This document shows, piece after piece, positions 15,017-36,666 of a DNA stretch of 37,780 bases. A program made the position numbers and the translations under genes. Origin of the DNA: Alphaproteobacteria bacterium (GTDB lineage Bacteria; Pseudomonadota; Alphaproteobacteria; Bin95). Under the pieces are notes generated by a model. It made no database searches. It had not been told where the DNA came from and saw nothing but the letters and a program-made list of their open reading frames with translations. The stretch's first letter is position 1. Each line of letters opens with the position of its first letter. The DNA is taken from positions 1-37,780 of the forward strand of contig JAJDVH010000063.1 of assembly GCA_022826185.1 (NCBI GenBank). Direction: 5' to 3'.

Positions 15017-15886
15017 CTATGGCAGCCGGGCCAGCCGGATGTCGAACTCGGCGGCGCAGAAGGGGGACTCCATGCCGAGTTCGCGCGCCCGCGCGGCGTC
15101 GTCCTGCTCCCTGAATTCGACCAGCAGCGAGTCCTTGACCCCGAACACGGCGTCCGAGTCGATATAGGGGTCGTCGTGGGCGAAGATGTGCGTCACGAGC
15201 CGCCGGTAGCCGGGTTTGGTCACGATGAAGTGGATATGCGCCGGCCGCCATGCGTGGCGGCCCATGCGGTTGAGGATATCTCCCACCGGGCCGTCGGTAG
15301 GCACCGGATAGGACACCGGCTTGACCGTGCGAAAGGCGTAGCGCCCCTCCGGGTCCGTGACGAAGCGTCCGCGAAGGTTCATCGCGGGCTGCAGGTCCGG
15401 CTGCTGGACGTCGTAGTAGCCGTCGGCGTTGGTCTGCCAGACGTCCAGGCTCGCGCCGGCCAGGGGCTCGCCGTCACTATCCGTGACGCGGCCCGAGACA
15501 TGGCAGGGCATTCCCTTGCCGTCCCGGCAGATGTTGCCGCCGGGTTCGAGCTGCGGCGCGCCCTCCACATGGAAGGGGCCGAGCACCGTTGCCTCCGTGC
15601 ATCCGTCCTGGGCCCGGTTGTTGAGGGTCTCCATCAGCATGGAAACGCCCAGCACATCGGAAGCCAGCACCCACTCCTGGCGCCGGTCGTCGCACATCTG
15701 CCCGGTGGCGGTCAGGAATTCGATGGCCCTGGACCATTCCTCGACCGTGGGCTCGACTTCCTTCACGAAGGCGTGCAGGTGCCGGATGGCGGCCTCCATG
15801 ACCTCCCGGAAACGGGGATCCTCGCAGGAGGCCAGCCGCTCGACGACGATGTCCGCAGAGTCGGCCTCGGTGAACAATCGGTTCAT
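15017..15886 (-). CDS. Intradiol ring-cleavage dioxygenase (hydroxyquinol or catechol 1,2-dioxygenase)
   Basis: A 289-residue non-haem Fe(III) dioxygenase that cleaves the aromatic ring between adjacent hydroxyls. The helical N-terminal dimerisation domain covers about 1-100. The catalytic beta-sandwich carries TEATVLGPFHVEGAP, the Tyr ligands near 157/158 (NADGYYDVQ) and Tyr193 (VSYPVPTDGPVG), and the His ligands 217 and 219 (RPAHIHF). The length and N-terminal domain fit hydroxyquinol 1,2-dioxygenase as well as catechol 1,2-dioxygenase, and I lean to the former. No maleylacetate reductase or muconate cycloisomerase is adjacent. The ATG at 15886 has a GGGAG site upstream; longer readings run into the HEPN gene. 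The gene to its 5' side is the AT-rich insert. Confidence 0.85.
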   Translation of the reverse strand: MNRLFTEADSADIVVERLASCEDPRFREVMEAAIRHLHAFVKEVEPTVEEWSRAIEFLTATGQMCDDRRQEWVLASDVLGVSMLMETLNNRAQDGCTEATVLGPFHVEGAPQLEPGGNICRDGKGMPCHVSGRVTDSDGEPLAGASLDVWQTNADGYYDVQQPDLQPAMNLRGRFVTDPEGRYAFRTVKPVSYPVPTDGPVGDILNRMGRHAWRPAHIHFIVTKPGYRRLVTHIFAHDDPYIDSDAVFGVKDSLLVEFREQDDAARARELGMESPFCAAEFDIRLARLP

Positions 15887-15984
15887 GTCGGACTCCCGCG
15901 TTGCGCCGCCCGGGCCCCGGTTAGGCCTTGAGGTATCGCTCGGACCGCCGGCGGCGGATGGAACCACTGTCTTTGGATTTAGGC

Positions 15985-16863
15985 CTAGAAGCCATGTCTC
16001 TCCATCCACTCGATAACTTCGGGAAGCGTCGCAAAATACTGATTTTGCATATGATATCCCCCAATACGCCAAGGCATTCCGGATGAATGTCTCCTGCGAT
16101 GTCTTCGTACATATACCGTCATCGTTCCGTCGCCCTTTTGAACCGTAAGTTCAGCTTCGGCGCTACTCCCGAATTCAGCGCCCCGCGGCTGAAAATGATC
16201 CACAATTGTTCGCAATTCGTGCAAAACACCACTATGGATGAAGCGGTCCCATTGTTTCAATCCTTGCGGGCGAAGGTTCGATGGCGTGGTGGCCATCCCG
16301 GGCGTTCGGCCTGGATTGATACTCGCCGTCGGTTTGATCGCCCCCGCTACGGATGCAGGAGCCTCATTACTTTCCGACTTGGTGGAGGGCTGTTCCTCGG
16401 CAATTGCTTCTTCCGGAACCGTAACCTTCGGAACCATTGCCGCTAGAGCCGCTAGCTTGGCTCTTTCGACGGTCGCCCGAGAGCCTTCCTCGGCGTCTAG
16501 AAGGTCGAGTAAACGGACAAGAGTATCGGCGTCACGATATTGGTCGTTAGCGGATGTCTCTTCAATGGATTGATGCGCCCACCTGTTTCGCATCGTCTGA
16601 AGCTCTTTGACCCAGTTTCTTCCTTCTCGCGGCAGCTTGAGATTGTCCTGCAGATCAAACCAGTTCTGGTCAAAAACCCTGAGAAGAGCGGCTAAATCGA
16701 GTTGCCTCAATCTGCTGTAGCCTTGCTCTTGAACTTGCCGCTGCTGTGGGAATGTGAGTTTGTCCAAAACATGTTTCTCCCACCAATCATCGGACATGGT
16801 AGGCAGGTGCTTCGAGAGGAAACGCTTGAGTTCAACAGTTGTGATGCGGTATAGATCGTTCAT
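15985..16863 (-). CDS. Candidate Swt1-type HEPN-domain protein, horizontally acquired
   Basis: The 292-residue product has an N-terminal helical domain (about 1-125) ending in RNRWAH (92-97), which fits the R-N-x3-H active-site motif of HEPN ribonucleases. The tryptophan-rich start (SDDWWEKHVLDKL, NWFDLQDNLKL) resembles Swt1-type HEPN domains found in bacterial defence proteins; that family assignment is from memory. A Ser/Pro/Ala-rich linker (about 150-195) follows, then an unrecognised C-terminal domain (about 200-292) with Arg/His-rich VRRHRRRH and a final helix VIEWMERHGF. Two sampled lines of this gene are about 48-52% G+C against about 67% in a neighbouring line, so it was probably acquired by transfer. 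No MNT antitoxin or restriction gene is adjacent. A TTATAT box (16926-16921) lies upstream. Confidence 0.75.
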   Translation of the reverse strand: MNDLYRITTVELKRFLSKHLPTMSDDWWEKHVLDKLTFPQQRQVQEQGYSRLRQLDLAALLRVFDQNWFDLQDNLKLPREGRNWVKELQTMRNRWAHQSIEETSANDQYRDADTLVRLLDLLDAEEGSRATVERAKLAALAAMVPKVTVPEEAIAEEQPSTKSESNEAPASVAGAIKPTASINPGRTPGMATTPSNLRPQGLKQWDRFIHSGVLHELRTIVDHFQPRGAEFGSSAEAELTVQKGDGTMTVYVRRHRRRHSSGMPWRIGGYHMQNQYFATLPEVIEWMERHGF

Positions 16864-16944
16864 CAGTCATCCTCAGTTGCAACCGCCTACCGTTTCTCGA
16901 CTTGTTTCAGACGTTGCGCCATATAACGATCAGTTCTCGCGATT

Positions 16945-18150
16945 CTACATGCGCTGCGCTGCCGGCTGGAGATAACCATCTCGCGTCTGGGGCAGTTTCT
17001 TGCCGAGGATGGCGCCGGCGACGACATTGCGGAGCACCTCCGCCGTGCCGCCGCCTATGGTGAACATGCGCACGTCGCGCGCCATGCGCTCCAGCGGGCG
17101 GTTCCGGGAATATCCCCGCGCGCCGAAGAGCTGCAGGGCGTCGTTGACCACCTGGATCGCGCTTTCCGAGGTCATCACCTTCGCCTGTGCGGCCAGCAGC
17201 ATGTCGGGAAAGCCGCCTTCGCCGCTTCGCGCTGCGCCATAAACCAGCGCCCGGCTGGCGGCGAGCTTGATCGACATGTCCGCGAGTTTCCATTGCAGGC
17301 CCTGGAACTCGTTGATCGGCCGGCCGAACTGCTCTCGCTCCTCCGACCAGTCGAGTGCCAGCCGGTAGGCGCCTTCGGCGATGCCGAGCGCCACGGTAGC
17401 CGCGCCGACGCGCTGGCTGTTATAGGCGGTCATCAGGTCCGCGAAGCCCTTTTTCAGCCCTCGCGGCGGCATGAGCATCATGGAGGGAGGCACCTCCATC
17501 TCCTCGAAGGCGATCTCCGCCTCCGGGATGCCGCGCAGCCCCATGGTCGGCTCGCGCTTCACGATGCGCAGCCCTTCGGTCTCGTCACGAATGGCGAGGA
17601 AGCCGCCGATACCCTCCTCCGCGCCGTCCTCGTCGAAGACGCGGGCGAAAATCAGGTGGAGCCGCGAGACGCCCCCGCCGGTAATCCAGTGCTTGCCGCC
17701 GTTCAGCACATAGCGGTTGCCGCGCCGGTCGGCCCTGGTGGTCATCTCGCCGGCGGAAGACCCGGCCTCCGGCTCCGTGATGCAGATCGCCGGCTTGTCG
17801 CCCGCCAGCACCATGTCGGCGGCCATGCGCTTCTGTTCTTCCGTGCCGTAAGCCATGACGGCGCTGATGGCGCCCATATTGGTTTCGACGACGATGCGGC
17901 CGGTGACCGAGCAGGCTTTCGACATCTCCTCGATGACCAGCACGGCATCGAGCCAGGACCGCCCCTGGCCGCCATAGGCTTCGGGAATCGTCATGCCGAC
18001 GAAGCCGCCTTCGACCAGCCGGTCCACATGGTCCCAGGGATAGGACTCGGTGCGGTCCACTTCCGCGGCGCGCTCCTGCACCGGCCCTTCGGCCAGTTCC
18101 TGCGCCGCCGATTGCAAGGCGCGCTGCCGGTCCGTCAGTTCGAATGTCAT
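16945..18150 (-). CDS. Acyl-CoA-dehydrogenase-fold flavoprotein, candidate 3-sulfinopropanoyl-CoA desulfinase
   Basis: A 401-residue member of the acyl-CoA dehydrogenase (ACAD) superfamily, with CITEPEAGSSAGEM and WITGGG flavin-binding segments and REQFGRPINEFQ. Both usual positions of the catalytic Glu are changed: the helix-G position is Gln246 (YNSQRV) and the C-terminal position reads IGGGT instead of YEGT. Arg85 (SVTGRIVVET) is also present. Arg84 and Gln246 are the substrate-binding and Glu-replacing residues described for the desulfinase AcdDPN7 of Advenella mimigardefordensis, which releases sulfite from 3-sulfinopropanoyl-CoA without net redox change. The divergent CoA-transferase could supply its thioester substrate. 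An ordinary dehydrogenase with another base remains possible. The start ATG is 42 bases from the divergent ORF. Confidence 0.85.
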   Translation of the reverse strand: MTFELTDRQRALQSAAQELAEGPVQERAAEVDRTESYPWDHVDRLVEGGFVGMTIPEAYGGQGRSWLDAVLVIEEMSKACSVTGRIVVETNMGAISAVMAYGTEEQKRMAADMVLAGDKPAICITEPEAGSSAGEMTTRADRRGNRYVLNGGKHWITGGGVSRLHLIFARVFDEDGAEEGIGGFLAIRDETEGLRIVKREPTMGLRGIPEAEIAFEEMEVPPSMMLMPPRGLKKGFADLMTAYNSQRVGAATVALGIAEGAYRLALDWSEEREQFGRPINEFQGLQWKLADMSIKLAASRALVYGAARSGEGGFPDMLLAAQAKVMTSESAIQVVNDALQLFGARGYSRNRPLERMARDVRMFTIGGGTAEVLRNVVAGAILGKKLPQTRDGYLQPAAQRM

Positions 18151-21397: not shown

Positions 21398-21886
21398 ATG
21401 CTGGTGCGGACCGTAATCCTCTTCCTTGTCGGTTTCGCCGGTCCCGCTGCGGCGTTCTGCACCGACGCGGCCGCGCCCGGCGTCGAATGGAACCGCTGCT
21501 TGTTCGACGAGCGCAACATGCCGGAAGCCACTCTGGCCGGTGCGAAAATCCGTTCGTCGTCGTTCAAGCGGGCAAATCTCGAAAAGGCGGATTTCACCGG
21601 CGCCGTCGGGTCGCGCGCCAAGTTCATCTCGGCCGGACTTCGCGATGCGCGGTTCGAAGGAGCGAGGCTGAACGATGCGGACTTCACCAAGGCGGACCTG
21701 AGGGGCGTGGTCTTCAGGAAGGCGGACTTGCGCCGGGCCCGGTTCTTCCGGGCCAGGCTGGAGGGCGCGGACTTCACCGGCGCACGCCTCCAGCAGGCCG
21801 ATTTCTTCGACGCCGATCTTTCCGGGGCCGTGTGGACCGACGGCAAGCATGTCTGCGCGCCGGGGTCCGTCGGCCAGTGCAGATAG
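21398..21886 (+). CDS. Exported pentapeptide-repeat protein
   Basis: A 162-residue protein with a signal peptide (about 1-19: VILFLVGFAGPAAAF) followed by some 15 tandem A(D/N)LXX-type repeats (for example ANLEKADFTGA, ADLRGVVFRKADLRRA) from about residue 45 to 140. These fold as a right-handed quadrilateral beta-helix. Flanking Cys pairs (Cys21/Cys34 and Cys154/Cys161) suggest disulfides in the periplasm. Function is not predictable; cytosolic members such as MfpA mimic DNA, which an exported protein would not. The ClC gene begins 10 bases downstream. Confidence 0.85.
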   Translation: MLVRTVILFLVGFAGPAAAFCTDAAAPGVEWNRCLFDERNMPEATLAGAKIRSSSFKRANLEKADFTGAVGSRAKFISAGLRDARFEGARLNDADFTKADLRGVVFRKADLRRARFFRARLEGADFTGARLQQADFFDADLSGAVWTDGKHVCAPGSVGQCR

Positions 21887-33433: not shown

Positions 33434-34780
33434 ATGGCAAGTCCGGATTTCTCGGTCCTGCCTTCCGTGGACCGCCTGCTTGAGGACCCCGCCCTGGCCG
33501 CGGCGGCCGCGGAATACGGGCGGGCGGAAGCGCTGGCGGGCGCGCGGCAGGCGCTCGCGGATGCGCGGCGGACGCTCGGGGCCGGCGGCGCGCTCGACCC
33601 TTCATCGCTCGGCCCGGCGGCGGCGGCGCATATTGCGGCGCGGGGGCGGCCGTCGCTCCGGCGGGTGTTCAACCTGACCGGCGTGGTGCTGCACACAAAC
33701 CTTGGCAGGGCGCCGCTCCCGCAGGAGGCGATTGCCGCGGTCGCGGAGGCCGCCGGCAATTGCAATCTCGAATACGACCTGGAGACGGGCCGGCGGGGAG
33801 ACCGGGACTCCCATGTCGAGGCGCTGCTGACCGAACTCACCGGCGCGGAAGCGGCGCTGGCGGTCAACAACAATGCCGCTGCGGTCCTGCTGGTGCTGAA
33901 CAGCCTTTCCGCGGGGCGCGACGCGCTGGTTTCGCGCGGAGAGCTGGTCGAGATCGGCGGCTCCTTCCGCATGCCGGAGATCATGGCCCGCGCCGGCGCC
34001 CGCATGGTCGAGGTCGGCACGACCAACCGCACGCATGCGAGCGATTTCGAGGCTGCCATCGGTCCGGACACCGGCTGCGTGATGAAGGTGCACACCTCCA
34101 ACTATGAGGTCGTCGGCTTCACGGCGTCGGTGCCGGACGACCGCCTGGCCCGTATCGCGGAAGCGGCGGGCGCGCCCTATGCGGTCGATCTGGGCGCGGG
34201 CCAGCTTGTCGATCTCGCGCGCTACGGGCTGCCGCAGGAGCCGATGCCGGGCCAGGCGCTCGCCGCCGGGGCCGGGCTCGTCACCTTCAGCGGCGACAAG
34301 CTGCTGGGCGGCCCGCAGGCCGGTATCGTCGTCGGCCGCGCAGACCTTGTCGCCCTGCTCAAGCGGAACCCGATGCGCCGGGCCATGCGGCTCGGCAAGC
34401 TCTCCCTCGCGGCGCTGGAAGCGGTGCTGCGGCTCTACCGGGACCCGGACCGGCTGGCCGAGCGCCTGCCTGCGCTCCGTGCACTGACCCGCTCCGTCGA
34501 GGAGATCGAGGCCCAGGCGCACCGGCTCGCGCCGGCGATGGAGGGCGCGGAGGTCGTGACCGTCGCGAGCCGGATCGGCTCCGGGTCGCTGCCGGTGGAG
34601 CGCCTCGAAAGCCGGGCGCTGGCGCTGTCCGCGCCCGGCGGCAAGGCGCTGGAGGCGCGCGCGGCGGCCTTCCGCCGGCTGCCCGTCCCGGTCATCGGGC
34701 GCATCGCCGAAGGGCGGCTGCTCTTCGACCTGCGCACGCTTGACGACGAAGACGCATTCCTGTCCCAACTGGCCCCATGA
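33434..34780 (+). CDS. selA: L-seryl-tRNA(Sec) selenium transferase
   Basis: SelA is the PLP enzyme that converts Ser-tRNA(Sec) to Sec-tRNA(Sec) with selenophosphate. The 448 residues are close to the normal length. Family motifs include [20 protein letters not shown] (78-97), the Gly-rich [12 protein letters not shown], and [13 protein letters not shown] with the PLP Lys289. It overlaps selB by ATGA (34777-34780), so SelA and SelB are made together. The partner genes selD (selenophosphate synthetase) and selC (tRNA-Sec) are not in the window, and no selenoprotein gene with an in-frame UGA was recognised here. Confidence 0.96.
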
Positions 34781-36666
34781 TCGTCGCGACGGCCGGGCAT
34801 ATCGACCACGGCAAGACCTCGCTGGTGAAGGCGCTGACCGGCACCGACGCCGACCGGCTGCCGGAGGAAAAGGCGCGGGGGCTCACCATCGACCTGGGCT
34901 TCGCCTACTGGCAGGCCGGCCCCGGCCAGACCGTCGGCTTCATCGACGTGCCGGGGCATGAGCGGTTCATAAAGAACATGCTGGCCGGCGTCACCGGCAT
35001 CGACGCGGCGCTGCTGATCGTGGCCGCCGACGACGGGCCGATGCCGCAGACCCGCGAGCATCTGGCGATCCTCGACCTGCTGGGCGTGCAGCGCGGCATT
35101 ATCGCCGTGACCAAGGCCGACCGCGCCGAGCCGGAGCGCGTGCGGGCGGTTGCCGAAGAGGCGCAGGCGCTGGCTGCGGATACCGGGCTCGCCGGGGCGC
35201 CGGTGCTCCCCGTCTCCGCGATAACGGGCGCGGGCGTGCCGGAATTGCAGCGCCTGCTGCAGCGGCTTGCGGGCGCGGTCGGGCGGCGGCGGGCGTCGGG
35301 GCGGTTCCGGCTGGCGGTGGACCGCAGCTTCACCCTGCGCGGCGCGGGCCTCGTGGTCACCGGCACGGCCTTTTCGGGCGCGGTCAAGGTCGGCGACCGG
35401 CTGCTGGTCTCGCCCGGCGGGGTCGAGGCGCGGGTGCGCGCCATCCACGCCGAGAACGTCGAGGCCCATGCCGCCCAGGCCGGGCAGCGGGTGGCGCTCA
35501 ACCTCGCCGGGTCGGGCCTGCGCCGCCACGCCGTCTCGCGCGGCGACTGGCTGCTGGCGCCCGAGGCCCACGGGCCGACGCGCCGGATTGACATAAGGCT
35601 GAGGGTGCTCGGCAGCGAGGCGCGGCCGTTGCGGGACCGCACGCCCGTGCATGTCCATCTGGGCGCGGCGGATGTGACCGGTAGGGTCGCGGTGCTGGAC
35701 GGCCCGTCCATCGCGCCGGGCGCGGCCGGCTGGGCGCAATTGCTGCTGGACCGCCAGATCGGCGCGCTTGCCGGCGATGGCGTCGTGCTGCGCGACCAGT
35801 CGGCCATGCGCACCATGGCCGGCGGCCGCGTCGCCGATCCGTTTCCCCCGGCGCGCGGCCGGGCGCGGCCGGAGCGGCTGGCGGAACTTGTCGTGCGCGC
35901 CGGGGACGACCCGTTCGGCGGGCTGGTGGAGGCGGCGGCCTTCGGCTTCGATTTCCCCCGCTTCGCGCTCGCGCACAATCTGAACGACGCGGAACAGGCG
36001 GCGCTGAGGCGGCGGCAGGGCGTGGTGTTCGCGGGTCCGGTCGCCGTCGATGCCGGGCGCTGGCAGGCGCTCTCGGATGCCTTCGAGCGCGAGGTGGACG
36101 CCTGGACGGCGGCGCATCCCGACAGCCAGGGACTCGGTCCCGTGGCGCTCCGCCGGCGGCTCGACCCGGTGCCGCCGCGCGATATCGCGGAGGCGGCGCT
36201 GGCGGCGCTCGCCTCCACCGGCAAGCTCGCGCGGTCCGGCGGTTTCGTCCACCGGCCGGGCCACCGCGCGGCGCTCGCCCCGGAGGAGGAGGCGCTCTGG
36301 AAGCGCATCGAGCCGCTGGTAGTCGAGGGAGGCCTGCGCCCGCCGCGCGTCCGCGAACTGGCCGACATGCTCAAGGTCGATCACGCGAGGGTGGAGCAGG
36401 TGTTGCGGCAGGCCGGGCGCTTCGGCCTGGTGCGAAGGGTGGCGGACAATCGCTGGTTCCCGCCGGATGCGCTCAGGGGGCTGGCGGACATTGCCGAAAC
36501 CCTGGCGGCTGAGAGCGCCGACGGGCGTTTCACGGCGGCGGCCTACAAGGACCGCTCCGGCATCGGGCGCAATGTCACCATCGAGTTGCTGGAGTTTTTC
36601 GACAAGGAAGGTTTCACCCGGCGCGAGGGCGACGCCCGCCGGATCGTCCGGGAGTGGCGGGGATAA
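34777..36666 (+). CDS. selB: Selenocysteine-specific elongation factor
   Basis: SelB is the GTPase that delivers Sec-tRNA(Sec) to UGA codons marked by a SECIS hairpin. The 629-residue product has G1 GHIDHGKT (7-14), G3 DVPGHE and G4 TKAD, then the EF-Tu-like beta-barrel domains. The C-terminal ~250 residues form the winged-helix repeats that bind SECIS RNA (segments around [22 protein letters not shown] and [22 protein letters not shown]). All domains are intact. It is translationally coupled to selA. The enolase-superfamily gene begins 29 bases downstream but has no obvious functional link. Confidence 0.96.

Follow-up and report, generated by a model that had tools for sequence, protein, structure and literature searches.

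A solitary HEPN_Swt1 gene as a candidate derivative of HEPN-SNF2 defence helicases

The locus and its gene

The window, meaning the whole stretch of 37,780 nucleotides that was analysed, carries a solitary gene of the HEPN_Swt1 family among metabolic genes (Table 1). The open reading frame and its low G+C content, both noted in the original prediction, were confirmed, with 52.3% G+C in the gene against about 67% nearby and a local profile that falls to 51-58%. By codon position, G+C amounts to 0.60/0.43/0.54 in the HEPN gene as against 0.68/0.47/0.86 in the adjoining acyl-CoA dehydrogenase gene, and the third-position value of 0.54 compares with 0.85-0.89 for the neighbours. A genome-wide search found the gene to be single-copy in its 4.48-Mb genome, with no second HEPN_Swt1 gene anywhere in that assembly of 279 contigs, and the gene is missing from 13 other genomes of the same order.

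The neighbouring genes encode a catechol-type dioxygenase, an acyl-CoA dehydrogenase, a CoA hydrolase/transferase, a MaoC-like dehydratase, a cytochrome c', a cytochrome b561 and a Cu/Zn SOD, and those tested belong to metabolism or transport. Farther along the window, selA and selB (selenocysteine synthesis and insertion) adjoin at 33434-36666 on the + strand, and at about 21400-21880 on the + strand, just upstream of a chloride channel gene, lies the gene of a short protein that begins with a signal-like stretch and contains pentapeptide-like repeats. Searches for RNA genes found none, and no tRNA gene was found in the window. Promoter and terminator signals stood at chance level, and no upstream region common to the HEPN gene and its relatives was found.

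Table 1. Features of the HEPN_Swt1 locus (window positions)
Feature	Position	Strand	Basis
Catechol-type intradiol dioxygenase gene, flanking	15017..15883	-	Start as in relatives; ORF list extends to 16072
Inserted segment, approximate, ~1.03 kb	15937..16966		Missing at the orthologous site in three genomes of the same genus; the acyl-CoA dehydrogenase 3' end is imperfectly copied at the edges
Solitary HEPN_Swt1 gene, 292 aa	15985..16863	-	ORF, ATG at 16863; PF18731 E 8e-17; sole copy in genome
Orphan C-terminal region, residues 174-292 (119 residues)	15988..16344	-	No detectable relative; low-confidence helix-helix-three strands-helix
Linker, residues 126-173, homologous to the stretch linking HEPN and helicase in the closest fused relative	16345..16488	-	65% identity to residue 171; profile homology stops at 165
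HEPN_Swt1 domain, residues 1-125, predicted RNase	16489..16863	-	Pfam match; conserved columns
RNRWAH, residues 92-97, R-x4-H HEPN active-site motif	16573..16590	-	Conservation in relatives
Acyl-CoA dehydrogenase gene, flanking	16945..18150	-	C-terminus GYLQPAAQRM vs GYLKA in relatives, at insertion edge

Insertion site

In three same-genus genomes the dioxygenase and acyl-CoA dehydrogenase genes are directly joined, without the approximately 1,030 bases present here, so that relatives lacking the gene at this exact junction, which the original prediction had proposed to look for, do exist. The insertion point is the stop codon of the acyl-CoA dehydrogenase gene, an imperfect copy of whose native 3' end lies beyond the insert. 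Low G+C together with the empty site bears out the foreign origin suggested at the outset, and we conclude that the HEPN gene is horizontally acquired. No integrase, transposase or tRNA was found at the insert, and a search for the terminal inverted repeats of a transposon gave nothing convincing. A GCCTAAC-like motif 3' of the stop codon raised the question of an integron cassette; this was rejected, as by eye there is no GTTRRRY end on that strand and the motif belongs to the native dehydrogenase 3' end.

HEPN domain and active site

The Swt1-like N-terminal domain originally recognized by eye was recovered by profile search, PF18731 (HEPN_Swt1) matching residues 11-121 at 62 bits, well above the cut-off of 27.5 (E 8e-17, Pfam). 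The RNRWAH motif likewise proved to be the R-x4-H of the HEPN active site. HEPN domains with R-x4-6-H are RNases, as established for the superfamily (PMC3710099). The two residues on which the original prediction rested are conserved, R92 in 62 of 63 full-length relatives and H97 in all 63, and the window gene departs at none of the 35 columns whose conservation among these 63 proteins reaches 90% or more. The HEPN core of the window protein is intact, and RNA cleavage through R92/H97, probably as a dimer, is predicted.

Fused relatives and ancestry

Relatives were sought in one genome per species across 84,980 species, and the best 80 of 140 relatives were kept. The first close relative is a 1192-aa protein from a Rhodospirillaceae MAG, which shares 65% identity with the window protein over residues 1-171 and then continues as a SNF2 helicase matching PADLOC DrmD at 379 bits; the gene that follows it encodes a 1030-aa sacsin/HSP90-like ATPase to which PADLOC TmtA matches. 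Complete fusions of more than 1000 aa (about 1190-aa HEPN-SNF2 proteins, DrmD-like) make up 60 of the 80 best loci out of 140, and a sacsin-like gene lies in the locus in 58 of these 60 and is directly adjacent in 54. Hosts of the relatives include proteobacteria, planctomycetes, verrucomicrobia, actinobacteria, Bacillota and methanogens, and full-length fusions were also seen on three viral contigs. As the original prediction would have it, the relatives are defence-type fusions and do not sit consistently in housekeeping contexts, and the existence of the PADLOC TmtA models means that the sacsin-like ATPase family already figures among the catalogued defence candidates.

The pair itself is an observation in its own right: an approximately 1190-aa HEPN_Swt1-SNF2 helicase followed by an approximately 1030-aa sacsin/HSP90-like ATPase is widespread in bacteria and methanogens (loci L049-L128, e.g., L049:10001-16665). 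No name for it was found in the literature searched, the coverage of which left out most subscription journals.

A tree built from 81 HEPN domains places the window gene and three full-length fusions in one clade with 100/99 support, and on it ten separate changes are required to account for the ten short genes. Since the window HEPN domain is nested within a fully supported clade of fusions, the solitary form is, as read from this tree, derived and not ancestral. The single-gene system that had been thought possible therefore holds as far as solitude is concerned and fails as a founding single-gene family, the gene being derived from the N-terminal module of an approximately 1190-aa HEPN-SNF2 protein.

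The absence of a partner, also part of the original prediction, was borne out, with metabolic genes on both flanks and no sacsin-like partner among the neighbours or anywhere in the source genome, in which a search with the helicase part gave weak generic helicase matches only. It could be argued that the protein is a toxin whose antitoxin, or whose partner in a larger system, is encoded at another site in the genome, given that HEPN domains act as toxins in MNT-HEPN pairs (PMC3710099) and that an assembly of 279 contigs makes a distant partner possible. We consider this improbable, because neither a sacsin-like partner nor more than generic helicase matches could be detected, no notable small ORF is adjacent, and no nucleotidyltransferase partner stands beside the short relatives, whose neighbours were read by eye.

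Linker and C-terminal region

Downstream of residue 165-171, no helicase or sacsin-gene homology was found in any frame of the insert, frameshifted remains included. The C-terminal domain had been described as unrecognised and basic, and both points stand: residues 195-292 have a pI of 9.8, and nothing rose above cut-off for the C-terminus in Pfam, PHROGs or PADLOC. Roughly 700 to 780 genomes were sampled for relatives of this region, and among 398 phylum and 385 class genomes only weak, scattered and chance-like matches appeared, several of them in stop-containing frames; the plasmids, phages and viral contigs searched held no relative. One weak match (E 0.006), not taken as homology, was to a 114-aa protein that looks CyaY/frataxin-like. 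The structure prediction that had been proposed for the C-terminal part gave the order of helix, helix, three strands and helix but no confident fold (pLDDT about 50). AlphaFold run without an alignment reached a mean pLDDT of 41 for the whole protein and 50 for the C-terminus, too poor for use, and Foldseek returned no match under E 1 for the predicted C-terminus.

The C-terminal stretch is probably coding, since 119 codons without a stop have a chance probability of 0.017. An open frame is no proof of a domain, and the region cannot be shown to be one because it has no relative anywhere searched.

Short relatives

Homology to the fusions stops within the linker, at residues 139-175, in six of the 12 genes that are not full-length, a clustering with P about 1e-6 against uniform breaks for a range that was chosen after the data had been seen. 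In one of these six genes (L111) a McrB N-terminal-type domain of about 80 residues replaces the helicase. It shares 46% identity with residues 105-184 of a McrB-like ATPase that is plasmid-encoded, with a restriction endonuclease or McrC gene next to it, and because the matched segment is a domain from the interior of a different protein and not the tail of a gene, L111 looks like a true domain swap.

Further short forms were observed. The HEPN_Swt1 genes with a McrB N-terminal-type domain in Robiginitomaculum (L111:4993-5748 and L115:10001-10756) directly follow infB within a translation operon, and another solitary HEPN_Swt1 gene (L060:3031-3948) encodes a protein of 305 aa that ends in a C-terminal region of its own, again unrecognised. 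An in-frame chimera resembling a deletion scar (L112:9977-10660) joins HEPN to a macro-domain-like tail, by its appearance presumably a broken macro domain, for which Pfam gives no call. In L124:570-2495, likewise a chimera, half of the helicase runs on into the end of the gene for the sacsin-like partner through an in-frame deletion. L082 and L088 are truncated genes, and we count all four as clear decay products within the family.

Function or decay

The ratio of nonsynonymous to synonymous rates on the window branch is 0.23-0.32, below 1, as compared with 0.03-0.07 on the sister branches by the strictest count and up to 0.17 by looser counts, and the window branch is 0.43 long against 0.09-0.29 for its sisters. 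The longer branch and raised ratio would fit relaxed constraint. Intact conserved columns cannot date a loss, because the apparent scar gene L112 is also unchanged there; L085 likewise shows no departures.

We favour, with a probability of roughly 0.52, the reading that the gene derives from a HEPN-SNF2 defence helicase, now stands alone and is a still-functional predicted RNase effector in which the helicase has been exchanged for another, possibly sensing, region. In favour of function are the unchanged conserved columns, the rate ratio below 1, the clustering of breaks in the linker and the domain swap in L111. The analysis shows the HEPN identity, the conserved core, the descent from fusions, the insertion and the lack of partners; RNase activity, a defence role, a role for the C-terminus and continuing selection on the window gene are inferred. 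Alternatively, a HEPN-SNF2/sacsin island may have been acquired and then have shed most of its length through an internal deletion that brought HEPN and linker into frame with the last part of a different gene of the island, leaving a stub that is nonfunctional or incidental. We regard this as a possibility to be taken seriously, if not the one we would choose: similar events are seen in L112 and L124, plain truncations occur in L082 and L088, the tail is without homologue and the gene without partner, the rate on its branch is raised, and the insert is only about 1 kb long with neither integrase nor transposase. Arguing in the other direction, the break coincides with a domain boundary, which also holds for five further short genes and is more than would be expected of uniform breaks, the catalytic core is fully retained, and an independent solitary gene possesses a complete and recognisable swapped-in domain.

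A role in host RNA metabolism outside defence, fixed after a chance transfer, is very unlikely in our view. The position of the gene between catabolic genes and that of one solitary relative in the infB operon would suit such a role, but the gene is absent from 13 other genomes of its order, its spread is patchy, and its fused relatives are of the R-M/DISARM-like type.

Proposed mechanism and its meaning

The ancestor of the window gene would have been the N-terminal HEPN_Swt1 module and linker of an approximately 1190-aa HEPN-DrmD-like helicase paired with a sacsin/HSP90-like ATPase. By analogy, helicase and ATPase may have sensed invading DNA and released the HEPN domain. In the window lineage the helicase would then have been lost, and an unrelated region of about 119 residues joined at the linker. 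The most likely use of the resulting protein would be as a growth-arresting RNase effector, with its basic C-terminal region (pI 9.8) possibly taking over regulation, restraint or target recognition from the helicase and ATPase. HEPN domains fused to restriction-type ATPases have been proposed to serve as a suicidal backup effector (PMC3710099; PMC12839542).

It is tempting to speculate, with more doubt than confidence, that bacteria repeatedly excise the HEPN_Swt1 effector from HEPN-helicase proteins and reuse it as a one-gene system with an exchangeable recognition domain joined at the linker (McrB-type in L111, unrecognised in the window gene and L060), in which case the window C-terminus would be a new sensor domain.

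If the gene is functional, it shows that the RNase effector of a multi-part defence system can be detached and equipped with another domain within one small gene, which would offer a compact and testable unit for studying the control of HEPN effectors. If it is a stub, it would be a clean example of how defence islands decay and leave behind orphan toxin-like genes that are easily taken for new systems. Either reading points to the widespread pair of HEPN-SNF2 helicase and sacsin-like ATPase.

Comparison with known systems

No PADLOC defence model matches the window protein, whereas the helicase (DrmD) and ATPase (TmtA) of its fused relatives do find matches. With respect to MNT-HEPN pairs, no minimal nucleotidyltransferase gene is adjacent at the window locus, where the neighbours are metabolic. 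The likeness to DISARM lies in the helicase part lost from the ancestor, which matches DrmD models at about 375-400 bits; in the fusions the matched model sets in downstream of the HEPN part, and the window gene lacks the helicase.

HEPN-DUF499 ATPases belong to the Hma / BREX-related Type-1 systems (PMC12839542), in which HEPN_Swt1 is likewise N-terminal, there on a large ATPase; examples were seen in one of the genomes compared (G285) and in Thermus plasmids. Their HEPN domain is more distant (29-45% identity over parts), they have methyltransferase and helicase partners whereas the window gene has none, and Pfam gave no DUF499 match in the window protein.

The Robiginitomaculum genes L111 and L115 resemble the window gene in being solitary, about 250 aa long and broken from the helicase at the linker, with a new domain at the C-terminus. 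That domain is recognisable from McrB-like ATPases, whereas the window C-terminus is not recognised.

Fusions of HEPN_Swt1 to SWI2/SNF2 were listed in 2013, WQE_15321 being one example (Anantharaman et al.; PMC3710099). The window gene has the HEPN family, linker and active-site motif in common with them, at 65-69% identity to the nearest over the HEPN part; it differs from them in having neither the SNF2 helicase nor the sacsin-like partner and in carrying 119 unrelated residues instead. HEPN-Swt1/SNF2 fusions are thus already known, and the window gene is a variant on them.
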